Translations under genes and position numbers: made by a program | DNA from: an uncultured Bryobacteraceae bacterium | Lineage (GTDB): Bacteria; Acidobacteriota; Terriglobia; Bryobacterales; Bryobacteraceae | NCBI GenBank assembly: GCA_938003835.1 | Contig: CALKXJ010000007.1 | Location: forward strand, 186,001-250,000 | Reading direction: 5' to 3' | Length of the DNA stretch: 64,000 bases | Shown here: positions 35,142-50,181 of the stretch, piece after piece | Layout of the letters: each line of letters starts with the position of its first letter | How positions within the stretch are numbered: position 1 is the first letter of the stretch | Notes under the pieces: generated by a model | What the model was told of the DNA's origin: nothing | The model's database searches: none | What the model saw: only the letters and a program-made list of their open reading frames with translations

Positions 35142-36341
35142 TTACGTCCGGCGCCTCGGAATCAGCCACTCCGGCGGCGGTACGCCCCGCTCGCGCCGCG
35201 CCGCACGGAAATCGAATACGGCCTCGCGGATGGGGGTACCGATTACCTCGATCCGGTTCAGATCTCGAGTGCCGACCCCGAGCTCCTCGGCCAGGCGGAG
35301 CGTGCTGTCACAGAACTCAAATGGCGGCGCGCCGCGGTCGGCCATCGGATCGAAACCCATGAGCGCCGCGCCGACCGCATCCGTGCACACCGCATTCGTG
35401 CCCACTACGAGCAATCCCGGGCTCACCGGGAACGACCCGCGCGAGCCCGCCGTCTCGCCCACCGCCTGGCTCTCGATGCCGTCGATAATCGCCAGATCGA
35501 TCGGCCGGGCCGCCGCCAGATCCGCCACGCACCGCGGGACGCGGTAGCCGCCCTCGCGCGGGGAATTCGGGTCGATCTCCTGCGGCGCGCTCTTCGACGG
35601 CGGCCGCCGCCCGTAGTGAATCACCGCGCCACGCCCACCCCGCGGCACCAGGCTTGGCTCCTGCTCCCCCGCGCCCTCGCCGTAGATCGTGCAAGGCGTA
35701 ATTCCGAAGGAGTTTTTCATCGCCAGGGTGATGCCCGCCGTGAGATGTTCCTTCAGCTTGGCGATGGACACATAGACGTCGCAGTCGCGGTAGGAGTGGT
35801 TCAGGTCATAGGCCGGAAACAGATGGCCGCCCTTCGGCACCGGGAACCGGTAGTACTGCTTGCCATAGCCCAGGTAATTCGTGTTCTCGAATTCTACGCG
35901 CCGCGCCGTCGCCACGAAGTCCTGGGGCTCCCAGCCCGCCTTCAGCATGAACTCCTCGAGCGGCTCCGCCGTCGACCACGGACTTTCGAGCAACCGGATG
36001 CGGTGCGCTCCGGCGCGGTCCATCAACCGCATCGTCGCCAGAACCACCGCCGGGTGCGTCCACGTCGTCTGCTCGAGCGGCGCATGGCCCAGGCGCCGGT
36101 CCGCCGTGCCGGTCAGGTTCAGCTTGATCGCGACGGTCTTGCCTTTCACCAGCCGGCCCAATCCTCCGATCTGGTCGAACATGCGCTCGAGCACGGGGAA
36201 AAGCTCCCCGGGCTCGTAAGTCCGGCAGCGCGCCACCGCCACCGGCGCCGCCGGGGCGTTCGCCCGCGCCAGACCAGCCGCGCCCGCGGCGGCGGCCGCC
36301 TGCAACCACGCCCGTCTTGTATAGGTATGGAAAGAACTCAT
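35142..36341 (-). CDS. TAT-exported DUF362 domain protein
   Basis: 399 residues. Leader TYTRRAWLQAAAAAGAAG is a twin-arginine signal. The DUF362 domain shows KTVAIKLNLTGTADR near residue 70, VYVSIAKLKEHLTAGITLAM with the NSFGI motif after it, and DLAIIDGIESQAVGETA. DUF362 occurs in ferredoxin-like and uncharacterised exported proteins; here no 4Fe-4S cysteine motif is visible, so a redox role is not supported. It follows the enolase-superfamily gene 36402-37637 (60-base gap, same strand), suggesting co-expression. Confidence 0.8.
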   Translation of the reverse strand: MSSFHTYTRRAWLQAAAAAGAAGLARANAPAAPVAVARCRTYEPGELFPVLERMFDQIGGLGRLVKGKTVAIKLNLTGTADRRLGHAPLEQTTWTHPAVVLATMRLMDRAGAHRIRLLESPWSTAEPLEEFMLKAGWEPQDFVATARRVEFENTNYLGYGKQYYRFPVPKGGHLFPAYDLNHSYRDCDVYVSIAKLKEHLTAGITLAMKNSFGITPCTIYGEGAGEQEPSLVPRGGRGAVIHYGRRPPSKSAPQEIDPNSPREGGYRVPRCVADLAAARPIDLAIIDGIESQAVGETAGSRGSFPVSPGLLVVGTNAVCTDAVGAALMGFDPMADRGAPPFEFCDSTLRLAEELGVGTRDLNRIEVIGTPIREAVFDFRAARRERGVPPPEWLIPRRRT

Positions 36342-36401: not shown

Positions 36402-37637
36402 TTAGCCACGCTCCAGACCGTGCCGCTTGAGAAACGCCGGATCCCAGTCGATACCCAACCCCGGCGCCTCCGGAGCATGGACGAAGCCCTCGGAGTCGAC
36501 CGGATAGGGAGCGGCGAAGCCGACCTGAAAGCCCTCTGGATTCCAGTAGCCGGGATCGTACATGTATTCGATATAACCGCTGTTGGGCGCCGCGCATTGC
36601 ATGTGGAGATTCGCCATCATCCCCACGCCGCTCTTGCCGTGGTGCGGTCCGAAAAGAACGCCGAAGGCCTCGCCCATCGCCGCCATCTTGCGCACCAACG
36701 AGATCGGGCCGCTCACCACCGGGTCCGGCTGGATGTAGCTGAAGGCCCCTTTGACCAGGATCTCGCGAAATTCCCCGAGCCCGCGGTTGCCCTCGCCCCC
36801 GGCCAGATGCATCCGCGTAAGCCCGCTTCGTAGCCGCGCCAGCTCCTCGAGCGCCCCGCGCGCGAGCGGCTCCTCCAGCCAGTAGACGCCCATCTCCTCG
36901 AGCGCCCTCGCCGTCTCGGAGGCGCGCCGGTAATCCCACACCGGCGGCGGATCGCCGGGCCGCTTGCCCGCCTGATTGGCGTCCACCATGACGGTGATGC
37001 GATCGCCGGCCGCCCGCACCACCGTCTCGACCAGCCGCAGGTCGTCCTTCATCTCCGCGTGGTGCAGGCGCAGCTTGATGGCCCGGAAGCCCGCCTCGTA
37101 AAACCGGCGGGCGTCCTCGGCGCGTTCCTCCGGCGTCTTGTCAAAATGCACCGTCGCGGCGTAGGCGCGCACCTTGTCGGCGGACGCTCCCCAAACCCGA
37201 TACAGCGGCGCGCCGAGCGCCTTGCCCACGATGTCCCAAAGCCCGATTTCCAGGAAATAGAGACGAACCGGCGCCTTTTGCTTTTCGAAGAACTCCGTCT
37301 GGTGCCGCGCGATCTCAAACGGATCTTTGCCCGCGAAATACGCCTCGGCCCGGCCCTGCACCTCCGCGGCGATGCCCTCGGGCAAGCGGTAGTCGCCGTC
37401 GATGGTGGTGCCCACCAGACCCTGATCGGTCAGGAACTGGGTGACCACGTAGTCGCGCGTATCGAGCGGCGTCCGCTTTGGATCCCAGGGCAGGACAAGA
37501 CCCTTGCCGGTCGCCACGCCGCGCACTTCGATCGTCTTGACCGCCTTGATCCGCAGCGGCTTGACGCCGCGCGGCCGCTCCGGCGCCCGGCAGCCCGCCG
37601 CCAGCGCCCCGAGAATCGTAAAGTCGCGCCGTCGCAT
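36402..37637 (-). CDS. Exported enolase-superfamily (mandelate racemase-like) protein, possible TAT lipoprotein
   Basis: 411 residues from the ATG at 37637. The N-terminus MRRRDFTILGALAAGCRAP combines a twin-arginine-like start with a lipobox (LAAGC), so the mature protein may be lipid-anchored outside the inner membrane. The barrel has AIKLRLHHAEM (Lys), ITVMVDANQAG (metal Asp), YWLEEPLARG (metal Glu), LAGGEGNRG and FGPHHGKSGVG (His). The reaction is likely dehydration or epimerisation of a sugar acid. An upstream ATG at 37676 would bury the leader and is rejected. Confidence 0.85.
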   Translation of the reverse strand: MRRRDFTILGALAAGCRAPERPRGVKPLRIKAVKTIEVRGVATGKGLVLPWDPKRTPLDTRDYVVTQFLTDQGLVGTTIDGDYRLPEGIAAEVQGRAEAYFAGKDPFEIARHQTEFFEKQKAPVRLYFLEIGLWDIVGKALGAPLYRVWGASADKVRAYAATVHFDKTPEERAEDARRFYEAGFRAIKLRLHHAEMKDDLRLVETVVRAAGDRITVMVDANQAGKRPGDPPPVWDYRRASETARALEEMGVYWLEEPLARGALEELARLRSGLTRMHLAGGEGNRGLGEFREILVKGAFSYIQPDPVVSGPISLVRKMAAMGEAFGVLFGPHHGKSGVGMMANLHMQCAAPNSGYIEYMYDPGYWNPEGFQVGFAAPYPVDSEGFVHAPEAPGLGIDWDPAFLKRHGLERG

Positions 37638-37699
37638 CGCGCGGCCATCATAGACCGCTCTGGCACACCTGCGCAAGCCGCGATTCCCGGAGCGCTCCC

Positions 37700-39739
37700 T
37701 CAGCGCCGCGCCAGCGCCCGCTCCAAGTCTTCATGCACCGCCCGGAGCAGATCCTCCCCGGCCGTGTGCACGAACAGATGCCCGCCGGCGAACCACCGCA
37801 GGTGAAACTCCCCCTCCGTCTGCTCCCTCCAGGCTTCGAGCGCCTCTGGCGTCATTCGTACGTCCTCGGCGCCCGCATAGACCACGATGGGGCACCGAAG
37901 TTTCGGGCCGGGCTCGTACACATAGGCCCGGCTGAGGGCCACATCGGCGCGCAGGGCCGGCAACACCAGCCGTTTCAGATCCTCGCTTTCGAAAATCTCC
38001 CTCGTCGCGCCGAGTCGCTCCAGCTCGCCGAGCAGCTCCTCTTCACCCGGATCCGGCCCGATAATGGCTGTACGTCGCAACTGCGGCGCGCGGGCCGCGG
38101 CCACCAGCAACACCTGCGGTTCGGGCCTTCCCTCCCGCGCCAGCCGCCGCGCCAGCTCGAAGGCCACCAGCGCCCCCATGCTGTGCCCGAAAAAGGCATA
38201 GGGCCGGTCGAGCTCCGCCGTGATCGCCCGCGCCAGCTCGCCCACCAGCGTCTCGATCCGGTCAGCGGGCGCCTCCGCAATCCGGCTCTCCCGGCCCGGC
38301 AGCCGCGCCGGGCACACGGCCACCCACCGGGCCAACCGTCCCTCCCAGCCACGAAAAACCGCCGCGCCACCGCCCGCGTACGGGAAGCAGAATAGGCGCA
38401 GTTGCACCTCGGCGTCGCGCCGCAAACCCGGGAACCATCGCTCGGCCCCCTGCTGAGCGCGGCGGCGCAACCTGGCGACGAGCAACGCCCGCTGATCCGG
38501 CGAAAGTTTCTCCCGGAGAGAGCTGCCCGCAGGCCTCTTGACGCCGGTTCGCTGGGGCGGCCGACTCGCCACCGTCTCGAGCAACCGCTCGAGCGGCTCG
38601 ACGCTCACGCCGGCCGCATACTCGAGCGCCCGGCGCCGCCCTTCACGTGAAAGCCTCTCATAACGGTCGCGGTCACCGAGCAGCTCTTCGAGCGCCCGCC
38701 TCCACGGCCCGGTGTCCTGTTCGGGCACCTCCGCCACCGGCACCATCTGTTCGTCGACCTGATGCCGGTAGCGGGCAATTGGCCGCACCGGCACCAGATA
38801 GTCAAGGCCCATCATCGCCTCCGGAATACCGCCCACTTGGGCGGCGATGACCGGCACGCCGCGCAGCCAGGCCTCGACCACGATGCGGCCGCGCGCCTCC
38901 ACCCAAAGCGACGGAACCAGCATGACGCGCGTTCGCTCCAGGATCCGCTCGATGTCATCCACCGGCTCGAGCAAAGTCACGTTTGGGCGGCGGCGAAGCG
39001 CCTCGAGATCCGCGGCTGTGGTTCCCCAGGTCGGCACCGCAGCAAAGCGAACCTCCGGCAGGGCATCGGCGAGCGCCAGGAAAATCGCGATCCCCTTCAC
39101 GGCGCAGGGATTCACCATCGTGACGAACTCGTTGTCCCAGCGGCCGAGCTCCCGGTACGGCCCGCCTTCGAGCGGTGAAATCGGAAGCGCCTCGGCGGCT
39201 ATCCCGCTCCACCGCCGAACATAATCGGCGACGTACCGGCTCACTCCCACCACCGCGTCCACGCGCCGCAGCCGCTCGGTCATCTCCCTGCTTTCGAACG
39301 CCGCCTCCGGCCCGAACGGCAGCGCCAGCGTCGTTCGCACCAGATAGACCAGGGCCCCGCGCTCCTCCCGGAGCGCCGCCTCCAGGAAAATCTGCGCCGG
39401 GTCGTCGGTCGATAGCAGGATCACGTCGGGTTCGAATTCCCGGATCGCCCGCTGGAGCTCCGCGCGGAGATTCGTCTTGCCCGTGAGAACACGCAGGCGC
39501 ACGCCGTGGAGCGCCAGCCGCACGAGTCCCTCCTCGACGGCCAGCGGCGCAAGGCCACGCCGCTCGAGCTCCTCCAGATAGTTTCGCTCGACCTCCTCGC
39601 CGAAGTTCCCCGAAGCGCGCGCCACCACCTCGCAGGCGTGCGAGCGGGCCGCCAGCGCCTCCATCAGCAGCCGGTTGGATTTGTCTCCACCGCCATGCGA
39701 CGGGTAGTACGGCGAGTTCTGTGCCAGCAGGATCCGCAC
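37700..39739 (-). CDS. Fusion of a GT4 glycosyltransferase and a type II thioesterase
   Basis: 679 residues. Residues 1-~395 are a GT-B glycosyltransferase similar along its length to the next gene (VNPCAVKGIAIFL, PTWGTTAADLEALR, PSLWVEARGRIVVEAW keeping an EX7E). A linker with LSPDQRALLVARLRRRA (about 412-428) follows. Residues ~447-679 are an alpha/beta-hydrolase thioesterase: LRLFCFPYAGGGA, FFGHSMGALVAFELA with S520, D626 in AGAEDVRMTPE and H654 in FAGGHLFVH, a full triad. Type II thioesterases release or proof-read carrier-bound acyl chains. GTG start, six bases after the previous stop; third gene of the assembly-line operon. Confidence 0.87.
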   Translation of the reverse strand: MRILLAQNSPYYPSHGGGDKSNRLLMEALAARSHACEVVARASGNFGEEVERNYLEELERRGLAPLAVEEGLVRLALHGVRLRVLTGKTNLRAELQRAIREFEPDVILLSTDDPAQIFLEAALREERGALVYLVRTTLALPFGPEAAFESREMTERLRRVDAVVGVSRYVADYVRRWSGIAAEALPISPLEGGPYRELGRWDNEFVTMVNPCAVKGIAIFLALADALPEVRFAAVPTWGTTAADLEALRRRPNVTLLEPVDDIERILERTRVMLVPSLWVEARGRIVVEAWLRGVPVIAAQVGGIPEAMMGLDYLVPVRPIARYRHQVDEQMVPVAEVPEQDTGPWRRALEELLGDRDRYERLSREGRRRALEYAAGVSVEPLERLLETVASRPPQRTGVKRPAGSSLREKLSPDQRALLVARLRRRAQQGAERWFPGLRRDAEVQLRLFCFPYAGGGAAVFRGWEGRLARWVAVCPARLPGRESRIAEAPADRIETLVGELARAITAELDRPYAFFGHSMGALVAFELARRLAREGRPEPQVLLVAAARAPQLRRTAIIGPDPGEEELLGELERLGATREIFESEDLKRLVLPALRADVALSRAYVYEPGPKLRCPIVVYAGAEDVRMTPEALEAWREQTEGEFHLRWFAGGHLFVHTAGEDLLRAVHEDLERALARR

Positions 39740-39745
39740 CGATTC

Positions 39746-41059
39746 TCAACCGCCGCTTGCCGGCCGCAGCTTCTCCCGGAGCTTCTTGACGAGCAACGCT
39801 CGCCGCTCCCGAGCGGCCTCCTCGCCCGGCCGGGCCGCGACACCGCCCACTTCCTCGGGCATTCGCGGCTCGAGCCCGGCCAGATACTCCTCAAATGCCT
39901 CCGGCCGAACCGCAAGCACGAATCGCAAGGCTGCCTCACGCGCCGCGTCCGACTCCCGCCGGTAGAGGTCCGCATCGCTCATCAACTCTTCGAGCGCCTG
40001 CGCCCACGGCCCGATGTCCTGCTCCGGCACCACCGCCACCGGCATCCGGTTTTCGTCGAACACCGTCCGGTACCGCTCGATCGGCCGCACCGGCAGCACG
40101 TAGCGGGTGCCCTGCTTCGCTTCCGGCAGCCCTCCCTGATCGCTGGCCAGCACCGGCACCCCGTAAAGCATCGCCTCCATGACGACGAGACCGAAGCCCT
40201 CCGGCCACAGCGAGGGTACGAGCAGAATCTTCGTCTGGCGCAGCACCGCCTCGATGTGCCGCGCTTTGGCGAGCAGGGTGATGTTGTTCGCCGCCCGCAG
40301 AGCCGCAAGATCCGCCGCCGTCGTCCCCCAGCCCCGCAACGCTCCGAAGCGATACTGCGGAAACCGGCGCGCCAGCTCGAGAAAGATGGAGATCCCTTTC
40401 ACCGCACAGGGATTGATCATCGTGATGAGCCCGTCGGCGTTCGGATCCCGGTGCGCGTATGGACGCTTCCCATAGACGGGCGGATGGATCACCACCGGGC
40501 GCCGTCCCAAGTGCCTCTCGATGTAGCGTGCAGTAAAGTCGCCGATGGTGACGATGCCGGCCGCGCGCCGCACCAGCTCCGCTCTGGACGCGCTCGGGTT
40601 CAGGCTTGCGGGTCCGAACGGGAACATTTGGGGCGTATGGGCCAGATAAACCACCCGCCCTGGCGCCGCTCGCTGCGCCTCCCCCAGGAGCGCTTGCCCG
40701 ACGTCTTCGCTCGATACCAGCACCCAGTCCGGCGCGAACTCCCGAATCGTCTCGGCGAGCGCTGCGCGTATCCGGCCCGGCTCCCGCACCGCGTAGACCG
40801 TGAGCTCCCCCTGGCGCAGCACCTCGCAGCCGAGGCGAGGCTCGGTTCGGATGCGCTGCACCCGGATGCCCTGCTCCTCCAGATCGGCGCGGAGGCGGGC
40901 TCGGCGTTCGGGCGTGTCCTCCGCCGCTGCGGGCGCCACGATCCGGCACTCGTGGCCTCGCGAGGCCAGATGCTCCAGCCAGGCCAGGTTGCTCCGCGTC
41001 GAGCCTCCCCGCGGCGGCACATGCACCGCATTCGAGGTCAGCAGGATCCGCATCTTCAC
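39746..41059 (-). CDS. GT4 family glycosyltransferase of the assembly-line operon
   Basis: 437 residues. GT-B fold with SNAVHVPPRGGSTRSN at the N-terminus, ITMINPCAVKGISIFLELA opening the second domain and VPSLWPEGFGLVVMEAMLYG at residues ~281-300. It is clearly paralogous to the glycosyltransferase half of the next gene, implying a tandem duplication. Residues 417-431 (RERRALLVKKLREKL) match the linker of that fusion and resemble NRPS linker or docking helices. The GTG start shares GTGA with the stop of the giant synthetase, so translation is coupled. The sugar and acceptor are unknown; the carrier-bound acyl product is the obvious candidate. Confidence 0.87.
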   Translation of the reverse strand: MKMRILLTSNAVHVPPRGGSTRSNLAWLEHLASRGHECRIVAPAAAEDTPERRARLRADLEEQGIRVQRIRTEPRLGCEVLRQGELTVYAVREPGRIRAALAETIREFAPDWVLVSSEDVGQALLGEAQRAAPGRVVYLAHTPQMFPFGPASLNPSASRAELVRRAAGIVTIGDFTARYIERHLGRRPVVIHPPVYGKRPYAHRDPNADGLITMINPCAVKGISIFLELARRFPQYRFGALRGWGTTAADLAALRAANNITLLAKARHIEAVLRQTKILLVPSLWPEGFGLVVMEAMLYGVPVLASDQGGLPEAKQGTRYVLPVRPIERYRTVFDENRMPVAVVPEQDIGPWAQALEELMSDADLYRRESDAAREAALRFVLAVRPEAFEEYLAGLEPRMPEEVGGVAARPGEEAARERRALLVKKLREKLRPASGG

Positions 41060-44000
41060 GTCGCCCCTTCGCCCTGCTCCTCTTCGAGCAGCGCGCGGAT
41101 CTCCTCCTCGCTCATGCCCTCGAGCTCCTTGAGCAAAGCCGCGTACTCATCCGGGGAATCTCGCTCGATCCGCTCCAGCTCGATCGCCCTGGCGAGCTCC
41201 GCCACCGAAAAGTTGCCCGTAAAGATGACATCGAGCGGCAGCTCGACCTGGTAGCGTTCACGAACGCGGCCGAGCATCTGCACCGCCAGAAGCGAATGCC
41301 CGCCCAGGTCGAAGAAATTCTCGTGCAGGCCGACTCGCTCGACGCCGAGCATCTGGGACCACAGGGTGGCGAGCTCCTCCTCGAGCGGTGTCGCAGGCGG
41401 CACGTAGGCGCTTGCCGGCGCCGGCGGCCGTCTTTGGCCCCGCACCTGCTCAAGAATCGTCGCCGGATCCCGGAGCTCGCGCGCAATGCGCGCGTAATCC
41501 ACCGAAGGCGCCGCGGCCGCAGAAGGAACCTCTCGCGCGGCGGCCACTGGCACCCGCGCGTCCGGATCGTAGGTTACTTGCGCCGCCCGCTCCGCCGGGT
41601 AAGCGAAAATGGCGCCGCCTTCCGCAGGCTGCTCCCATTCGGCGCCGGTCTCGCGCAGGAAGCCGTAGGCCGGCTCGTTGCGGGCCGTCTTCACGTAAGG
41701 AATCATCACTCGGCTCAGGCCGCACCCGAGAGCGATCTCGCCGAGCCGCGCCAGCATACGGTGCTCCACGCCGCGCCCCAGTGCCCGGCAGCTCAGCAGG
41801 AAGGTGTCCACCTCCAACGCCTCGGCCGTCGTTTGGTAAATGACGACGCCCACTAATCCATAACTGCCGAAGCGATCCCGCACGTGAACCGCCAGACACT
41901 CGGCGCCGCCGGTGAGCATCGCCGCCACCTCGGTCTCGGTCCGCCGGCGCGGCGCGACGTTCATTTGATTTGTCCGCTGGGTGAGCTGGGCCACCCGCGC
42001 CAACTCCGCTGCCTGCGCCCGCTCGATCCGCACGTCAAGCTGCAGAGCATCGAGGAATTCCCGCAACGTCGCCACCTGATGCGCCAGCCGGATCCGTCTC
42101 AGCCGTTCCCCGTACATCTCGGCCCGCCGGCGGTCCTCCTCCGTGACCGCCCAGCGGTCGAACGCCCAGACGTGCTCGAGAAAATCCGGAATCTCCTCCT
42201 CCGCCTGCGGCAGCGCAAGCGTCAGCACTTCCGGGCAGTTCGCCTCCACCTCGGCGCATTCGGCCGGGTTGTCGTCCACGAATAAGAAACTGTCCAGTCC
42301 GAGATCGAGCTCGCACGCCAGGGCGCGCAGGTTCTCCGATTTCGGCCTCCAGTTGACCTTCCAGGCGACAAAATCCTCCCGGCTTAGCGGCATCTCGGGA
42401 TGCGCGGCAAAGACGGCCTCGACATCGGCCTCGTTGTTCTTGCTGACGAGGGCCAGCAGCATGCCCGCCTGCCGCCTGGCCCGCATGAACTGCTGCAACC
42501 GACGGTGCGCCGCGGTGATCTCGACGCCCTCAGGGCCGTCCTCGGCGCACACGCCCCGCCACAGCGTCTGATCGGCATCCAGGACGATCACCTTGTAGCG
42601 CGATCCCGCCAGCGCATGAATCCGGCGCGCGAGAAAGGTCCCCACCGCTGCAAAGAACTCCGGGGTGTAGGGCAGACGCCCGAGCTGGTCCGCATGCGGG
42701 TCGAAGACGGACGTCGCCGGATAAAGCGCGGCAATCTGTTCCCAGCGAACCACCTGGACCGTCGACGAGCTGGCGAAGCTCGCCGCAATCACAGCCTCCG
42801 CATGCCCCAGCCGCTCATCGCCGGAGTCGCTAGGACACAGAACGACTAGAAACGGCGCCATGGCCTGCCCGGCAGCGGTTCGGAGTGCCGAGACGAACTC
42901 GGCCGCGATCCGTTCGGCGAGCTCCGCGCCGCCGGCCAGCCAGTCCGCCAGACGGACCAGCAGGACGTTCGCGCCGCCGCGATTCGTGCACACCAGGCTG
43001 CCCGGATCGAGCAATTGCTGAAATACCTGATTGAAAGGAGCAAACCGAACCCGATAATCCAGTCCAAGCTCGCGAAACCAGAACTCGAGGACCTCTCCGA
43101 CCGGTTCGGCCGTGAAGGTCGCCGCCAGGGCAACGACGGCGACGTCCCTCTCATCACCCCGCAAGCTTTCGGCCACCTCCAGCTCGCTCAGTCGCCGCCT
43201 TTCGCCGTCACTCCATCGCTCGAGCAATCTCAGGTATGATTCGACAGCCGCGCGCACCCGGGCCGGCTCGAGCAGATCGAGGGCGAACAGCGCCTCGCCG
43301 CGCATCCGGTCGGCCTCTTCGACCAGGGTGATGAACAGCTCAAAATCCGTCTCGCCGGTGTCGATGCCCACCGCCTCGAACTCCAGCCCGGCCGGCGCCG
43401 TCCCCGGGATGGGGCCTTTCACCAGGCTGAACATCGCAGCCACGAGCGGTGGCGATCCCCGACCCGCCGCCTGCGCCACCTGGGCAAACGGCAGCTCCTC
43501 GTGCGCGTAGACCGCCGCGATCTCGCGCCGCGTGCGTTCCGCGATCTCCGCCTGATCCGGGTCGCCGCGTAGATCGATCCGCAACACCGCGGGCGCGGCA
43601 AAATAGCCGATCAACCCTTCGAGCTCCCGACGGGGGCGCCGGGCGGCGGTGATACCCAACACCACATCCGTCTGGCCGGTCCAGCGCGCCAGAAGGGCCG
43701 CCATGGCTCCCGCCAGCAGCGTGAACAGGGTCATGCCCCGCTCGCGGGCGGTTTCGCGCAGGCGCCTCGCCAGCTCGCCTCCCACCTCGAAGCGCTCCAC
43801 GCCGGCCTGGAAGACCGGCCTGTTCGGCCGCGGACGCCCCGGCGCCAGCTCCAGCCGCGGCGCGCCCGCCAGGTGCTGGCGCCACCACTGCTGGAGTTGC
43901 TCGCTCCTCTCGGCCGTAAGCCGCTCGCGCTGCCAGGCGGCGAAATCCCCGTAGCTGATTTCCAGCGGCGCAAGCTCCGGCGCCCGGCCCTCACCGCCGG

Positions 44001-46539
44001 CGCGATAGAGCTCGAACAGCTCCTCGAACAGGATCCGCACCGACCACAGGTCGCCGATCAGGTGGTGCATCACCGCCAGACACAGGTGATCCTCCGGGCC
44101 CACGCGCCAGAGGTTCAAGCGCCACAGCGGCGCCCGCGTCAAATCGAAAGGCCGCCGCGCCTCCTGCCTGGCCCGCGCCCAGGCGTCTTCAAAGCCGGCC
44201 GCGTCCTCCAGCACCAAAGGCGGCTCAGCGAGGGTCTCGCAGACGGCGAAAGGTCTGCCCTCTTCGCTGCGCGCCGAGGTGCGGAGTGACGGGTGGCGTT
44301 TCAGAAGCTCGCGCGCCCCGCGCTCAATCAGCCCGGCATCGAGCCGGCCCCGGATCCGCACCGCCACCGGAATGTGGCGCGCGGCGCTGCCCGGCGCAAG
44401 CTGCTCGAGCAACCACAGCCGCTCTTGCTCCAGCGAGAGAGGAGCTTTTTCTGCACCGCGTGATGCGATCTTTCCCTCCCCCGCCCTGCCGCAGATCAGT
44501 CTTTCAGCCAGTATGGCCGCCAGCCGTGCCACACCGGCGCCTTCCAGAACAGCCTCGAGCGGCACTGCCACTCCGAGCTCCCGCTCGAGCTCGTAGCCGA
44601 TCTCGAGCGCCGCCAGCGAATCGAGCCCGTAGGCAAGGAGCGGCCTTTCGGGGTCGAGCGCCTCCCGATTCATCCGAAGCTTGCGTGCCGCCGCTTGCCT
44701 CAGCCAGGCCCCCAGTCGCGCTTCGAGTTCGTCGCGAGGCAGCCCGTCGAGATCTTCCCGGCAAAGTTTCGGGCCGGACCCGGCCTCCGCGCCTTCCTTG
44801 AAGACCTCGTGGTAGAGAAGCGGCAGCTCGCCGCTGAGATATCGAGATCGGCAGAGCCCCCGCTGCACCTTCCCGCTCGAAGTGCGCGGAATCGCCCCTT
44901 TCGCCACCAGCGCGAAGGCGTGGAGTTGGACCTCGTGCTCGGCAGCGATCGCCTGCCGCACCGCCACAGCAATCGCCCCGGCGTCCTCGGGCCCTTTGCC
45001 AGCCGCCTCGATCGCCAGGGCGAGCTTCTCCTCCCCTTCCGCCTCGATGGCAAAGGCGGCCGCCACGCTCGATGCGACCTCCGGATGCGCCCGCCGCGCC
45101 GTCGCCTCGATGTCGTTCGGATGGTGATTGAGACCGCGGATGATGATCAGGTCCTTGAGCCGGCCCGCGATGTAGAGTTCGCCGTCGCGAAGGAAGCCCA
45201 GATCGCCCGTGCGCAGGAACGGCCCTTCGCCGGTATCCGACAGGAAGGCGCCGAAGGTCGCGCGCGTCTCCTCCGGCCGCCCCCAATATCCCTGCGCCAC
45301 GCCCGGTCCCGCGACCCAGATCTCACCGACCTCGTCCGGCGCGCACCTCCGGCCGGTTTCCGGATCGACGATCACGACGCGCGTCTCCAGAGCCGGGCGC
45401 CCGCAACCCACCAGCCGGCGCACCGGACCGCCGGCCGCCTCGCGCACCCGGTTGCGCTGAAGCCACGCCGCATCGGCTTTGAAACTCACCCAGCCGCCGC
45501 CACGTTCGCCGCCGCTCACCTTGAGTGTTGCCTCGGCCAGTCCGTAGGCGGGGTAAAACGCGGAAGCGCGAAAGCCGCAGCCGGCAAAAGCCCGGCTGAA
45601 GCGTTCGAGCGTCTCCGCCTGGACCGGCTCGGCACCGTTGAAGGCTACCTCCCAGCAACCGAGGTCGAGCCCCTCGCGATCCTCAGGCCCGATGCGCCGC
45701 ACGCAAAGCTCGTAGGCAAAGTTCGGCCCTCCGCTGTGCGTCGCCCGGTAGGTGCTGATCGCCTCCAGCCACGCCCGGGGCCGCCCCACAAAAGTCGCCG
45801 GCGCCATCCAGTAGCACGGAAAGCCACCGTAAAGCGGCGCCAGCAACCCGTAGATCAGACCCATGTCATGGAAATGGGGCAGCCAGCTCACCACGACGCT
45901 GTCCGGTCCGTGCCGGAACCCCGCGTCGATGTTCGCCAGGTTGTGCAGCACGTTCCCGTGAGTGAGCATCACGCCGCGTGGCGATCGGGTCGAGCCGGAG
46001 GTGTATTGCAAATAGGCGAGCTCGTCCGCTTCGGGCATCGGCCCCTCCCAGCCCGTCTCCCCTTGAGCTACCAGGTCTTCGGTCGCCTCCCAGGCCAGGC
46101 CCGGTATCGCCGTGCGCGCCGCGGCAAGATGGGAGGCGTCCGTGAGCGCCAGGCGCGCACCCGAATCTTCCATTACGGGCAAAAATTTCTCGAACCCGGC
46201 ACGCGTCGCCGCAAGCGGCAGCGGCGCCGCCAGCAGGCGGGCGTACAGGCAGCCGAACAGGGCCGCCAGGAAATCGAACCCGGCCCGGTGAACCAGCAGC
46301 ACCCGCTCGCCCGGCCCAAGACGGCGCTCGAGGGCGGCCGCCACCCGCCGCGCTCGCTCGTCGAGTTCCCGCCAGCCGAGGTGGACGGCCCCGCCATCCT
46401 CCCGGAGAAACGTGTAGCCGCAGGCGTCGCCGTCCTCCGCTCGCCGCCGTAAGAGTTCACACAGGGAAGAAAACTGCCTTGAACCTGCCGTTTCACACAC
46501 GGCTTCCACATTATCTCGCAGCCGGATGAGGCCCCTCAA
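41056..46539 (-). CDS. Hybrid megasynthase: FAAL - ACP - condensation - FkbH-like - PCP
   Basis: 1827 residues (numbered from the TTG at 46539; a GTG at 46500 is the likelier start because promoter-like boxes occupy the first 30 bases). Residues 20-575: fatty acyl-AMP ligase, with YTSGSTRSPRGV, WLPHFHDMGLIYG and YGLAEATLKVSGG. 605-680: carrier, Ser641 in YGLDSLAALE. 700-1110: condensation domain, active site HHLIGDLW at 825-832. 1130-1650: FkbH-like domain, with HAD motif LDADQTLWRGV (D1321, D1323) and SKNN, which in other systems transfers a glyceryl unit from 1,3-bisphosphoglycerate to a carrier. 1718-1790: second carrier, Ser1749 in DLGGHSLLAVQ. C-terminal acidic tail. No amino-acid adenylation domain. 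First gene of a coupled operon with two glycosyltransferases, one bearing a thioesterase. Confidence 0.88.
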   Translation of the reverse strand: MRGLIRLRDNVEAVCETAGSRQFSSLCELLRRRAEDGDACGYTFLREDGGAVHLGWRELDERARRVAAALERRLGPGERVLLVHRAGFDFLAALFGCLYARLLAAPLPLAATRAGFEKFLPVMEDSGARLALTDASHLAAARTAIPGLAWEATEDLVAQGETGWEGPMPEADELAYLQYTSGSTRSPRGVMLTHGNVLHNLANIDAGFRHGPDSVVVSWLPHFHDMGLIYGLLAPLYGGFPCYWMAPATFVGRPRAWLEAISTYRATHSGGPNFAYELCVRRIGPEDREGLDLGCWEVAFNGAEPVQAETLERFSRAFAGCGFRASAFYPAYGLAEATLKVSGGERGGGWVSFKADAAWLQRNRVREAAGGPVRRLVGCGRPALETRVVIVDPETGRRCAPDEVGEIWVAGPGVAQGYWGRPEETRATFGAFLSDTGEGPFLRTGDLGFLRDGELYIAGRLKDLIIIRGLNHHPNDIEATARRAHPEVASSVAAAFAIEAEGEEKLALAIEAAGKGPEDAGAIAVAVRQAIAAEHEVQLHAFALVAKGAIPRTSSGKVQRGLCRSRYLSGELPLLYHEVFKEGAEAGSGPKLCREDLDGLPRDELEARLGAWLRQAAARKLRMNREALDPERPLLAYGLDSLAALEIGYELERELGVAVPLEAVLEGAGVARLAAILAERLICGRAGEGKIASRGAEKAPLSLEQERLWLLEQLAPGSAARHIPVAVRIRGRLDAGLIERGARELLKRHPSLRTSARSEEGRPFAVCETLAEPPLVLEDAAGFEDAWARARQEARRPFDLTRAPLWRLNLWRVGPEDHLCLAVMHHLIGDLWSVRILFEELFELYRAGGEGRAPELAPLEISYGDFAAWQRERLTAERSEQLQQWWRQHLAGAPRLELAPGRPRPNRPVFQAGVERFEVGGELARRLRETARERGMTLFTLLAGAMAALLARWTGQTDVVLGITAARRPRRELEGLIGYFAAPAVLRIDLRGDPDQAEIAERTRREIAAVYAHEELPFAQVAQAAGRGSPPLVAAMFSLVKGPIPGTAPAGLEFEAVGIDTGETDFELFITLVEEADRMRGEALFALDLLEPARVRAAVESYLRLLERWSDGERRRLSELEVAESLRGDERDVAVVALAATFTAEPVGEVLEFWFRELGLDYRVRFAPFNQVFQQLLDPGSLVCTNRGGANVLLVRLADWLAGGAELAERIAAEFVSALRTAAGQAMAPFLVVLCPSDSGDERLGHAEAVIAASFASSSTVQVVRWEQIAALYPATSVFDPHADQLGRLPYTPEFFAAVGTFLARRIHALAGSRYKVIVLDADQTLWRGVCAEDGPEGVEITAAHRRLQQFMRARRQAGMLLALVSKNNEADVEAVFAAHPEMPLSREDFVAWKVNWRPKSENLRALACELDLGLDSFLFVDDNPAECAEVEANCPEVLTLALPQAEEEIPDFLEHVWAFDRWAVTEEDRRRAEMYGERLRRIRLAHQVATLREFLDALQLDVRIERAQAAELARVAQLTQRTNQMNVAPRRRTETEVAAMLTGGAECLAVHVRDRFGSYGLVGVVIYQTTAEALEVDTFLLSCRALGRGVEHRMLARLGEIALGCGLSRVMIPYVKTARNEPAYGFLRETGAEWEQPAEGGAIFAYPAERAAQVTYDPDARVPVAAAREVPSAAAAPSVDYARIARELRDPATILEQVRGQRRPPAPASAYVPPATPLEEELATLWSQMLGVERVGLHENFFDLGGHSLLAVQMLGRVRERYQVELPLDVIFTGNFSVAELARAIELERIERDSPDEYAALLKELEGMSEEEIRALLEEEQGEGAT
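46510..46539 (-). promoter_or_regulatory. Probable promoter of the megasynthase operon
   Basis: The minus strand reads TTGAGG (46539-46534), an 18-base spacer, then GATAAT (46515-46510). A GTG lies nine bases further on (46500), the same spacing as GATAAT to ATG in front of rmuC. This places the promoter inside the first codons of the longest reading frame. Confidence 0.4.
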
Positions 46540-46549
46540 GACCGGGCGC

Positions 46550-46555
46550 TAGAAT
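46550..46555 (+). promoter_or_regulatory. Possible -10 element for the phosphatase gene
   Basis: TAGAAT ends 11 bases before the ATG at 46567. It lies back to back with the megasynthase promoter, so the two divergent genes would share a control region of about 50 bases. Confidence 0.35.
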
Positions 46556-46566
46556 GAAAGCATCCC

Positions 46567-47283
46567 ATGGATCTGGTGATCTTCGACCTCGACGGCACGC
46601 TCATCGACTCGCAGCTCGACCTCGCGCATGCGGTCAATGCCGCCCGCGCCCATCTCGGTCTGGAGCCGATCGAGCTGCGCCTCATTGCCTCCTACGTGGG
46701 CGACGGGGCCCCGGTGCTGATCCGCCGCGCCCTCGGCCCCGAAGCGACCGAAGCCCAGATCCAGCAGGCGCTCCAGTTCTTCTATGACTATTACCGGGAG
46801 CACATGCTCGACCATACGCGCCTTTACCCCGGAGTACAGCCCGCCCTCGACCTGCTCCGCGATGCCGGCATCAAAATGGCCGTTCTCACCAACAAACCTG
46901 TGCGCTTCAGTCAGGCCCTGGTCGAAGGCCTCGGTCTCGGCGAGCATTTCTTCCGTGTCTATGGCGGTAACAGCTTCGAGCAGAAAAAGCCTCACCCCAT
47001 AGGCGTCGAGACACTCATCGCCGAATCCGGCGCCGCGCGCGAGGGCACGCTGATGGTGGGTGACAGCGCGGTGGATGTTCGCACGGCGCGCAACGCCGGA
47101 ATTCCCGTCTGCGGCGTCACCTACGGCTTCCAGCCGGAGGGCTTCGAGCAGGAGCCGCCCGATTTCCTCGTGGACAATCTCGAAGAGCTCGCCCGGATCG
47201 TCCTCGATGCCCGCCGCGACGGCCGCCCCCTGCTCGCCTTCAGGCCGGCACCGCTTCCGCAATCAGAGTCCGCACGAAGCTGA
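46567..47283 (+). CDS. HAD-family phosphatase, phosphoglycolate phosphatase type
   Basis: 238 residues. HAD motifs in order: MDLVIFDLDGTLIDS (nucleophile Asp), AVLTNKPVRF (Thr), the Lys in FEQKKPHP, and LMVGDSAVDVRTARNAG (acidic pair), with the helical cap typical of Gph/PpaX between motifs I and II. It likely dephosphorylates 2-phosphoglycolate or a similar small phosphate. It is divergent from the megasynthase, and a role in supplying or clearing its phosphoglycerate-type substrates is possible but unproven. The last 44 bases overlap the convergent isomerase gene. Confidence 0.85.
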   Translation: MDLVIFDLDGTLIDSQLDLAHAVNAARAHLGLEPIELRLIASYVGDGAPVLIRRALGPEATEAQIQQALQFFYDYYREHMLDHTRLYPGVQPALDLLRDAGIKMAVLTNKPVRFSQALVEGLGLGEHFFRVYGGNSFEQKKPHPIGVETLIAESGAAREGTLMVGDSAVDVRTARNAGIPVCGVTYGFQPEGFEQEPPDFLVDNLEELARIVLDARRDGRPLLAFRPAPLPQSESARS

Positions 47284-48154: not shown

Positions 48155-48160
48155 ATTCTA
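48155..48160 (-). promoter_or_regulatory. Possible -10 element for the isomerase gene
   Basis: The minus strand reads TAGAAT 18 bases ahead of the ATG at 48136, back to back with the SDR promoter candidate at 48193. No clear -35. Confidence 0.3.
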
Positions 48161-48192
48161 CGCGCGCCGTCCGGAGACCTCCCGGGCAACGG

Positions 48193-48198
48193 TACAAT
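48193..48198 (+). promoter_or_regulatory. Possible -10 element for the SDR gene, leaderless geometry
   Basis: TACAAT ends exactly seven bases before the ATG at 48206, so transcription would begin at the start codon. The same arrangement is seen at proC (59636-59641). The seven bases contain no ribosome site. Confidence 0.4.
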
Positions 48199-48205
48199 TC
48201 AAGAC

Positions 48206-48955
48206 ATGGCTACCCCGTTCCGACTCGATGGCAAGATCGCACTCGTTACCGGAGGCGCCAGCGGCATCGGCGAGGCCACCTGCCGCGTGCTCACTGACGC
48301 AGGCGCCTCCGTGCTCATCCTCGACATCGATCGCGCGCGCGCTGAAGCCCTCGCCGGGGAGCTGCCCCGCGCCTCCGCCGTCATCTGCGACATCACGGAC
48401 GAGGCGCAGGTGCGCCAGACTTTCGCCTCCATCCCCACCCTCGATATCCTCATCAACAACGCCGGCATCGGCCTGGTCGGCTCGATCGAAGAGACCAGCC
48501 GCGAGGACTTCGAGCGCATCATGAGGGTGAACGTCGAGGGGCCGTTTCTTGTAACCAAGTATGCGCTCCCGCAATTGCTGGCTTCGCGCGGCTCGATTGT
48601 CTTCATCGGATCTGTCGCCGGCCTCATCGGAGTCAAGCGGCGCTTCGCCTATTGCGCCAGCAAAGGCGCCATCGTCGCCATGGCCCGGCAGCTCACCGTG
48701 GATTATCCCACTCAGCTCCGCGTCAACTGCATCTGTCCCGGCACCGTGCACACCCCGTTTGTCGAGGCGTACTTGGAGAAGTACCATAAAAATGAGAAGG
48801 ACAAAGTTCGCGAGGAACTGAACCGGAGACAGCCCATCGGCAGAATGGGGCGGCCCGAGGAGGTCGCCTACCTGGCGCTGTACTTGTGCTCCTCCGAGGC
48901 CGAGTTCGCGACCGGCTCCGTGGTGACGATCGACGGCGGCTGGACTGCGGCTTGA
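48206..48955 (+). CDS. Short-chain dehydrogenase/reductase (SDR)
   Basis: 249 residues, classical SDR. Cofactor loop TGGASGIGEA, ILINNAGIG, catalytic Ser in IVFIGSVAG and YxxxK in FAYCASKGAIVA. The loop after the second strand reads LILDIDRAR; Asp here favours NAD(H) over NADP(H). C-terminal MGRPEEVAYLALYLCSS and TGSVVTIDGGW are standard. The ATG at 48206 is preferred over upstream in-frame starts that overlap the isomerase control region. Substrate unknown; similar proteins oxidise sugars or hydroxy acids. Confidence 0.9.
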   Translation: MATPFRLDGKIALVTGGASGIGEATCRVLTDAGASVLILDIDRARAEALAGELPRASAVICDITDEAQVRQTFASIPTLDILINNAGIGLVGSIEETSREDFERIMRVNVEGPFLVTKYALPQLLASRGSIVFIGSVAGLIGVKRRFAYCASKGAIVAMARQLTVDYPTQLRVNCICPGTVHTPFVEAYLEKYHKNEKDKVREELNRRQPIGRMGRPEEVAYLALYLCSSEAEFATGSVVTIDGGWTAA

Positions 48956-48969
48956 CGCCCGTTGCCCCG

Positions 48970-50181
48970 ATGAAACAAAATGGCTCAATGCGGTCCCGAG
49001 CGCTCCCAACGCTGACGGCCCTGTTTGTTCTGCTCTGGCTGTGGGCTTGCCTGCCCGCTCTGGCCTCCGCCGCCGCGGCCAAACCCGCTCATCCCCGGCC
49101 CAAGACGACCGCCGTCCGCAAGGCCCCTTCGCCGGCGCCGCGCGCGGCAACCCGGACTGCCGCCCCGAAGAAAGCTCGGGCCGGAAAGCCCGCCGAACGC
49201 CAGGGCCCCTGGCGCACCCCCACCTACGCCGATTCCGCCGCCGGGGACGTGCCCGACGGCGACGATCCGCTCGTGCGCCGCATTGCCGTTGAGGCGCTCG
49301 GCCCGTACAACGGCTCCGTGGTTGTCGTCGAAGCCTCCACCGGGCGCATCCTTACGATGGTGAACCAGAAGGTCGCGCTGGCAGGCGCCTTCACGCCGTG
49401 CTCCACCATCAAGATTCCCGTGGCGCTCGCCGCTTTGAGCGAAGGGCTCATCGACCGCAGCACCCGCCTTCGCGTCGCCGGGCGCGCGCCGCTCGACATG
49501 ACCGAGGCGCTCGCTTATTCCGACAACCCTTACTTCGCCAGCCTGGGGCGTAAACTCGGTTTCGACCGCTTCACCTACTACGCGCGCCTGTTCGGCCTCG
49601 GCGAGAAGGCAGGCCTGAACATCGAGGGCGAACAGGCCGGCTCGCTCCCGGAAGCCCCGCCCGCCAACGGCGGCATCGGAATGATGTGCAGCTTCGGCGA
49701 GGGGATCACGCTGACTCCGTTACAACTGGCCGCTTTGATGAGTGCTCTGGCCAACGGCGGAACCCTGTACTACCTCCAGTACCCGCGCACGCAGGAGGAG
49801 CGTGACAACTTCGTACCGCGCGTCAAGCGCCGGCTGGACATCGGGCCCTGGATCGCCGAAGTCAAACACGGCCTGCTCGGCGCGGTCGCCTTCGGCACCG
49901 CGAGGCGCGTCGGCTTCGACCCGAATATCCCCGTCTTCGGCAAGACCGGCACCTGCACGGACCGGAACTCGCCCACGCATCTGGGCTGGTTCGGCGCCTT
50001 CAATGAATCGGAGCGGAACCCCATTGCCGTCGCCGTCCTGTTGACCGGGGGCGCGCCGGTCAACGGCCCCGTGGCCAGCGGTATCGCGGGCGAAATCTTC
50101 CGCCGTCTCGCCGAGGCCGGCTTCTTCGAACAGGACCGGCGCCTCTCCCCCGTGGCGCTGGTCCACAAAGAAGCCTGGTAA
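48970..50181 (+). CDS. Penicillin-binding transpeptidase-domain protein (single-domain, PBP/class D-like)
   Basis: About 403 residues. N-terminal membrane anchor or signal (ALFVLLWLWACLPALASA), a basic Pro/Ala/Lys-rich linker (about 35-85), then a transpeptidase domain with all three motifs: SxxK in CSTIKIPVAL, SxN in AYSDNPYF and KTG in FGKTGTCTD. It lacks the N-terminal glycosyltransferase or dimerisation domains of large PBPs, so it is a stand-alone D,D-transpeptidase/carboxypeptidase or a beta-lactamase-like relative. The start could also be the ATG at 48988. Its TAA abuts a REP-like palindrome. Confidence 0.8.
   Translation: MKQNGSMRSRALPTLTALFVLLWLWACLPALASAAAAKPAHPRPKTTAVRKAPSPAPRAATRTAAPKKARAGKPAERQGPWRTPTYADSAAGDVPDGDDPLVRRIAVEALGPYNGSVVVVEASTGRILTMVNQKVALAGAFTPCSTIKIPVALAALSEGLIDRSTRLRVAGRAPLDMTEALAYSDNPYFASLGRKLGFDRFTYYARLFGLGEKAGLNIEGEQAGSLPEAPPANGGIGMMCSFGEGITLTPLQLAALMSALANGGTLYYLQYPRTQEERDNFVPRVKRRLDIGPWIAEVKHGLLGAVAFGTARRVGFDPNIPVFGKTGTCTDRNSPTHLGWFGAFNESERNPIAVAVLLTGGAPVNGPVASGIAGEIFRRLAEAGFFEQDRRLSPVALVHKEAW

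Follow-up and report, generated by a model that had tools for sequence, protein, structure and literature searches.

The locus lies in a 64,000-nucleotide stretch of DNA from an uncultured Bryobacteraceae bacterium (hereafter, the window); the host is a soil-type Acidobacterium, and the genome to which the window belongs (G000) comprises 5.0 Mb in 38 contigs. Between positions 37700 and 46539, three open reading frames (ORFs) on the minus strand, 41056-46539, 39746-41059 and 37700-39739, make up a tightly packed operon and encode proteins of 1827, 437 and 679 amino acids (aa), respectively. Where the first gene starts is uncertain: TTG at 46539 is one candidate codon, and GTG codons lie slightly downstream. 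The second gene most likely starts with the ATG at 41053, because its homologues begin with MRILLT or a similar sequence, so that a predicted gap of 2 bases separates it from the first gene; the gap between the second and the third gene is 6 bases. Two other minus-strand ORFs, 46549-47262 and 48158-49150, were considered as pathway genes and rejected, given that gene calling places plus-strand genes there instead. No PPTase is encoded in the operon, and two PPTases are found elsewhere in the same genome.

Pfam/NCBIfam domain searches and sequence matches to the PDB yield the order FAAL-ACP-C-FkbH-PCP for the 1827-aa protein (all coordinates here and below refer to the minus strand of the window). 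The first domain, residues 22-575 (44815..46476), is a fatty acyl-AMP ligase (FAAL) with a YTSGST motif at residue 179. It consists of an AMP-binding domain (E 2e-63) followed by a DIP2-like AMP-binding C-terminal domain (9e-11), and its best single-domain matches are NCBIfam fatty-acid--AMP ligase models, which are strong albeit below the curated cut-offs (the same holds for PRK05850, E 4e-125). Among the PDB chains, the best match is 7r7g (E 2e-139), which bears no label other than "Polyketide synthase", and the FAAL FadD23 (8hd4) is matched with E 6e-93. Assignment of this domain to the amino-acid adenylation domains was rejected, the TIGR01733 score being 164 bits against a cut-off of 317 and the closest matches being FAALs. 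The FAAL is followed by the first carrier (ACP; residues ~605-690, limits approximate; 44470..44727), a PP-binding stretch with a DSL motif that contains Ser641, and by the condensation (C) domain (residues 697-1122; 43174..44451; Pfam, E 5e-67) with HHLIGD at residue 825.

The FkbH glyceryl loading domain (~residues 1135-1640; 41620..43137) encompasses an N-terminal part, a HAD part and a GNAT-like part, and is recognized by TIGR01686 over residues 1315-1636 (E 4e-86, 289 bits against a cut-off of 147). Both the HAD-IIIC motifs and the GNAT-like half with its cysteine are present: each of the 48 aligned FkbH rows has D1321, D1323, K1400 and D1422 in the HAD part and Cys1584 in the GNAT-like half, and S1366, also in the HAD part, is retained in 47 (Thr in L036). 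A structural model of FkbH-PCP (seven sequences; pLDDT 82, pTM 0.63) has 3slr as the best PDB match and also partly matches GNAT enzymes and carrier domains. The motifs are intact, as in other FkbH glyceryl transferase-phosphatases (TIGR01686), although in the window the domain is joined to its own carrier with an acidic tail. This second carrier (PCP) is a PP-binding stretch at residues 1722-1786 (41182..41376) with a GGHSL motif that contains Ser1749.

Both remaining genes encode GT4-type glycosyltransferase domains. GT1 is the entire product of the second gene (39746..41059), with the EX7E motif at residue 287, and GT2 is the N-terminal half of the third protein (38555..39739), with EX7E at residue 281; the motif is intact in both, and its second Glu is replaced by Gln in the GT1 of L036. 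By fold, the GT halves match the GT4 enzymes MshA, PimA and BshA, with which they share EX7E at a low sequence identity (15-19%); the window enzymes differ from these in their link to carrier machinery and in the thioesterase (TE) fusion. The BshA structure among these matches was solved with L-malate, which shows that a GT4 enzyme is able to use a hydroxy acid. The match of the GT2-TE model (four sequences; pLDDT 72, pTM 0.47) is to GT4 in general. The thioesterase domain (37730..38398; E 5e-41), identified by Pfam, PDB matches and the triad Ser520-Asp626-His654, is closest to the type II enzymes RifR, RedJ and BorB; however, it is fused to GT2, in the relatives as well, and is therefore classed as resembling a type II (editing) thioesterase rather than as one. 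Ser and His are present in 42 of 42 TE rows, and Asp in 40, with Glu in the other two; all catalytic residues checked in the three window proteins are present. Taken together, these annotations bear out the reading of the domains in the earlier note, which, from the sequence alone, had proposed this five-domain order with a FAAL rather than an amino-acid-activating domain at its front, an FkbH-like glyceryl domain, and two glycosyltransferases and a thioesterase in the same operon.

According to published descriptions (PMC10099666, PMC8949500, PMC12397197), the vioprolide and corramycin assembly lines start with the same FAAL-ACP-C-FkbH-PCP order as the window protein, and in the vioprolide pathway a FAAL-loaded fatty acid is esterified to FkbH-loaded glycerate and the acyl group is cut off later. 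PMC10099666 reports that corramycin begins with two modules, FAAL-ACP-C-HAD-T, of the same architecture as those of vioprolide, into which glycerate enters by an unusual esterification. It names 1,3-bisphosphoglycerate as the proposed FkbH substrate and D-3-phosphoglycerate as the compound whose activation by the FkbH domain of vioprolide was demonstrated. The ester step in vioprolide is assigned to an ester-bond-forming C domain in PMC8949500. The chemistry proposed here thus has direct precedent, and the five-domain order is not new. By analogy, it is probable that in the window, too, FkbH loads a glyceryl unit that is then esterified with the FAAL-derived acyl chain, in line with the ester suggested as the simplest linkage in the earlier note; the window protein may accordingly be likened to the first two vioprolide/corramycin modules, an analogy that is taken to extend to these modules only. 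The expectation that the five-domain order itself might be novel did not hold, whereas for its occurrence beside glycosyltransferases, and likewise for a glycerate carrier with two GTs and a fused thioesterase, no description or assigned product was found in the open-licence literature searched. A search for full-length matches at E 1e-150 in 140 genomes of the phylum of Sorangium So ce26 yielded none; the vioprolide genes were not found there.

The same resemblance raises the question of whether the window protein makes a starter unit for a larger NRPS/PKS encoded elsewhere, in the manner of vioprolide and corramycin, with the GTs as tailoring enzymes. Besides the shared opening order, this possibility is in accord with C-FkbH-PCP modules seen elsewhere: L035 has one within an NRPS, and in L026 one closes a protein. 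It appears very unlikely, though, because the line ends in a carrier that is directly followed by the GTs and the TE, and because tblastn searches of 46 core stretches (without L120) with the C and FAAL domains as queries revealed no other condensation or adenylation module next to the core. Likewise, no further NRPS module was found in the operon or among the eight window proteins scanned between positions 35142 and 51370. Thus, whereas in vioprolide and corramycin the chain continues through NRPS modules, the window line stops, and GT1 and GT2-TE come next. In the aeruginosin-type compounds suomilide and dysinosin, FkbH is also proposed to load glycerate on a carrier; however, the module's own domains then methylate and sulfonate that glycerate, whereas here GTs are proposed to act in trans, with no peptide.

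The phyletic distribution of these genes shifts the emphasis away from the acyl chain. In the 61 genomes searched first (the window genome included), the best non-fused matches mostly cover residues ~1130-1825 and lie in frames of ~700 aa; in the fetched neighbourhoods, the FkbH-PCP protein is followed by GT1 and then by GT2-TE, the last two sometimes as one protein. A single GT1-GT2-TE protein of ~1000 aa is found in several relatives (L107, L110, L113, L119, L174, L175, L200 and L202). Among the matches listed for 237 genomes of the family, FkbH-PCP is present in 97, GT2(-TE) in 99 and both in 93, compared with 40.5 expected if the two were independent (hypergeometric probability 7e-53, a figure that ignores relatedness); in 82 genomes, again among the matches listed, the two lie within 7 kb on one contig. 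The FkbH-PCP count leaves out rows below E 4.5e-116, among them fragments in G062, G112 and G179 and distant FkbH-like paralogues; the GT2 count leaves out GT1 rows, the NRPS-borne GT of G230 and second GT2-like rows (G102:C329, G175:C217, G178:C73, G002:C46, G191:C38 and G193:C329). By eye, 85 of the 99 listed GT2 rows span both GT and TE (start <=60, end >=550), and 14 are partial, some of them at contig ends. FkbH is found without a GT2 partner in G032, G075 and G116, all counted within the 97, and GT2-TE without a close FkbH-PCP row in G126, G192 and G254; the fetched stretches of G126 and G192 contain no FkbH beside GT2-TE, and that of G192 no GT1 either. The location of the FkbH-PCP and GT2-TE rows on different contigs in eleven genomes is due in part to short contigs. 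Among the matches listed for 396 genomes of the phylum, the window genome is the only one with the GT-TE fusion, and G311 and G443 have relatives of the GT alone.

By comparison, three of the 237 family genomes, those of the window, G178 (L022) and G033 (L036), have FAAL-ACP-C fused to FkbH-PCP; in a fourth case, G191, C-FkbH-PCP is seen, and the residues before the C domain are cut off by the start of the contig. The threshold of this search was 1e-100, and fused proteins cut by contig ends, as in G191, could escape it. Concordantly, tblastn on 46 fetched core stretches (the window excluded) found the C domain in three, all fused, and the FAAL in two of these. HHxxxD of the C domain is retained in all four fused proteins (HHLIGD, HHIISD, HHIISD and HHLIGD), in which the Gly that usually closes the HHxxxDG motif is replaced by Leu (as in the window) or Val. 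The two records with full-length relatives come from Solibacteraceae and Bryobacteraceae MAGs of the Acidobacteriota; comparison of the window with the stretches of L022 and L036 showed no common syntenic gene beyond the three genes. As judged from sequence comparison, the core is a glyceryl-carrier/two-GT/thioesterase system to which acylation is a rare addition, because FkbH-PCP, GT and GT-TE recur together in more than 80 of the 237 genomes and the acyl fusion in three or four. The acyl part, to which the earlier note gave prominence, is therefore not the heart of the system, and of the conservation on which it had asked for a survey, the GT neighbours of FkbH-PCP proved to be widely retained but the complete five-domain order was found in three genomes, with a partial fourth.

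In a quick tree of 48 FkbH rows (SH-aLRT support; root unsure), the four fused rows form one group (94, not starred) inside a 41-row group of core proteins (94), and five NRPS-borne FkbH domains as well as L106 and L120 fall outside the latter. The L120 locus has FkbH-PCP beside an NRPS, with no GT partner. In a FastTree of 87 GT rows, the 39 GT1 rows group in a single clade (100), within which the four fused loci also form one clade (100); the GT2s of the fused loci are not a single clade, and GT2 is related to the N-terminal GTs of NRPS proteins in G311 and G230. GC3 along the 1827-aa protein ranges from 0.80 to 0.85 in the FAAL, C, FkbH and PCP domains, with a value of 0.73 for the short ACP, and hence shows no sign of a recent import of the front part.

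Several features suggest that the GTs act on the carrier. The carrier ends in an acidic tail (DEYAALLKELEGMSEEEIRALLEEE...; 41059..41151), helical in the model, that is a candidate docking element; GT1 ends in a basic motif (ERRALLVKKLREK; 39749..39823), its putative docking partner, and a LSPDQRALLVARLRRR motif is located between GT2 and the thioesterase (38456..38509). A tail with the consensus LLxEIEGLSDEEVRALL closes 35 of the 42 FkbH-PCP proteins, and among 27 GT1s, 21 have the basic motif LSPEKRALLLxRLR within their final 60 residues. These counts come from a looser pattern than the first, strict one; a further relaxed pattern finds the tail in 36 of the 42 (6 missed) and the motif in 24 of the 27 (three missed, including the window GT1, a divergent copy), and the window tail fits this relaxed pattern but not the preceding one. 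Anywhere in GT2-TE, the motif is found in 36 of 43 proteins with the looser pattern; the first, strict one finds it in 26, with 0 expected. Shuffled ends gave 0.0 for the carrier tail and 0.05 for the GT1 motif. The background of the tail is 2 of 84 long PCP-containing ORFs, both of which are the fused relatives L022 and L036, and that of the basic motif is 2 of 158 C-domain starts and 4 of 790 random 70-mers (strict pattern, 1 in 105 C-domain ORFs). The mean net charge is -6.6 for the tail and +4.5 for the motif, values that are partly built in because the patterns contain charged letters and were drawn up after the sequences had been viewed. L106 and L120, FkbH-PCP proteins without GT partners, also lack the acidic tail. 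In the GT-bearing NRPSs of G230 and G311, the same basic motif sits between a GT and a C domain, and because of this position it may be a mere linker. The PaxA carrier-docking complex 7b2b is among the Foldseek matches of the FkbH-PCP model, a weak hint of docking.

The PPTases point in the same direction. In six of 54 loci (~51 genomes), a PPTase-like stretch directly adjoins the end of GT2-TE; those in L196, L197 and L118 pass the PF01648 cut-off, that in L214 passes PF22624 but not PF01648, and those in L168 and L102 (the latter partial) were detected by tblastn alone. On the strength of the tight linkage, the adjoining PPTases and the acidic tail/basic motif pair, the GTs probably work on the carrier, although the chances of glycosylation on the carrier as such are put at about even.

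The converse order of events, whereby the TE first frees (acyl-)glycerate, and the free acid, or a lipid, then serves as the acceptor of GT1 and GT2, has in its favour that the GT halves match MshA, PimA and BshA, GT4 enzymes with small-molecule or lipid acceptors, and that the closest solved thioesterases are stand-alone type II enzymes. Stand-alone type II thioesterases act in trans. Given, however, that the TE is fused to GT2, that GT1-GT2-TE is a single protein in several relatives, and that the carrier tail and the GT motif co-occur, this order is unlikely. The fusion of the TE to the second GT could, on the other hand, reflect transfer rather than release: the GTs would assemble a saccharide on a different acceptor, and the TE would move the (acyl-)glyceryl unit to a sugar hydroxyl, yielding a glyceroyl ester of a glycan. 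Some thioesterases do form esters; nevertheless, the resemblance of this one to the type II enzymes RifR, RedJ and BorB, and the finding that no acceptor-pathway gene recurs widely in 50 neighbourhoods clustered by similarity, make such a transfer quite unlikely.

Based on the above considerations, the operon is proposed to encode a small thiotemplated pathway that modifies glycerate while a carrier holds it. FkbH would take the glyceryl unit from, by family precedent, 1,3-bisphosphoglycerate, remove the phosphate and place the unit on the second carrier. In the four fused cases, the window and its three closest relatives, the FAAL would charge the first carrier with a fatty acid, which the C domain would join through an ester bond to one of the hydroxyls of the glyceryl unit on its carrier, by analogy with vioprolide. 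Docked on the acidic C-terminal tail of the carrier, GT1 and GT2 would each contribute one sugar, attached either to the hydroxyl still free or to the sugar already in place; the GT2-fused thioesterase would release the product, presumably by hydrolysis as an acid. The predicted product is an O-acyl (di)glycosyl-glycerate in the window and an unacylated (di)glycosyl-glycerate in most relatives. That a glycosyl-glycerate is made on the carrier in this manner, and O-acylated in the window, has roughly even prospects. The product class could be the same as in GpgS/GpgP glucosylglycerate synthesis, a route that uses 3-phosphoglycerate and no carrier. Tentatively, the core might represent a family-wide class of assembly lines without chain extension, in which two GT4 enzymes dock on the carrier and glycosylate the glycerate there before a fused TE releases it, with FAAL-ACP-C as an optional front.

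The combination of a glycerate carrier, two GTs and a fused thioesterase, present in ~40% of the family genomes searched, is the new part of the system. Its retention in this share of the 237 genomes implies that it probably makes something useful to a common lineage of Acidobacteriota. The system is a lead for a glycoside or glycolipid, possibly a new way to glycosyl-glycerates and glycolipids, with simple enzymology (three proteins and, in most members, one carrier), and the candidate docking pair could bring glycosyltransferases onto carrier proteins. If the proposal is correct, thiotemplated sugar transfer to a carrier-bound hydroxy acid would be a new biosynthetic logic, the acidic-tail/basic-motif docking pair would be common to the core and to GT-bearing NRPSs, and the FAAL-ACP-C front would turn a glycoside into a glycolipid.

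Among the genes surrounding the core, a cluster of Gfo/Idh-like oxidoreductases (assigned by eye), found near 12 of 50 core loci, was considered as a pathway member and set aside as family background. An MFS gene lies near 11 of the 50 loci (none adjoins the window operon); one copy has EntS-type efflux models among its matches, below their cut-offs, and export of the product by the neighbouring MFS protein is possible.

Downstream of the operon in the window, 23 bases past the gene for the glycosyltransferase-thioesterase fusion (GT2-TE) and on the same minus strand, lies a gene for a mandelate racemase-like member of the enolase superfamily (36402-37676), relatives of which are found near 3 other core loci of the 50 (L172, L173 and L204), none of these three being a fused relative. 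On the other side, a candidate HAD phosphatase gene, recognized by eye, is divergently oriented (46567-47283, plus strand), with 27 bases between its start and the operon's first gene; among the 50 neighbourhoods, it has a relative near one other core locus (L170).

FkbH domains also occur apart from the glycosyltransferase core. An FkbH-PCP-TE protein is encoded in an acidobacterial genome of a different family (G057, L106:9054-11987) and a C-FkbH-PCP-TE protein in a Verrucomicrobiales MAG (L026:3745-8331); no adjoining glycosyltransferase of the core's family was found for either. Within the bacterial family of the window, two large proteins (G075, L189:11090-19372; G116, L190:7279-18799) carry an FkbH domain in their N-terminal part, and neither genome is represented among the GT2 rows counted over 237 family genomes.

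The EX7E motif of the GT1 from one fused relative (L036:15508-16830, plus strand) carries Gln at its second Glu position. At L194:4121-6254, G002 encodes a GT2 paralogue without the TE, and a gene for a methyltransferase of the FkbM type (PF05050) overlaps the gene of this paralogue; a similar-sized gene occupies the matching position in G102 (L193). Furthermore, GT2-type glycosyltransferases form the N-termini of NRPS proteins in G230 (L185:304-5781; GT-C-A-PCP-TE according to Pfam) and G311 (L161:11169-20000), the latter with an order that, judging from similarity, is probably GT-C-A-PCP-C-A-PCP-TE-like. The G230 protein is preceded by a carrier whose tail is similar to that of the core carrier.
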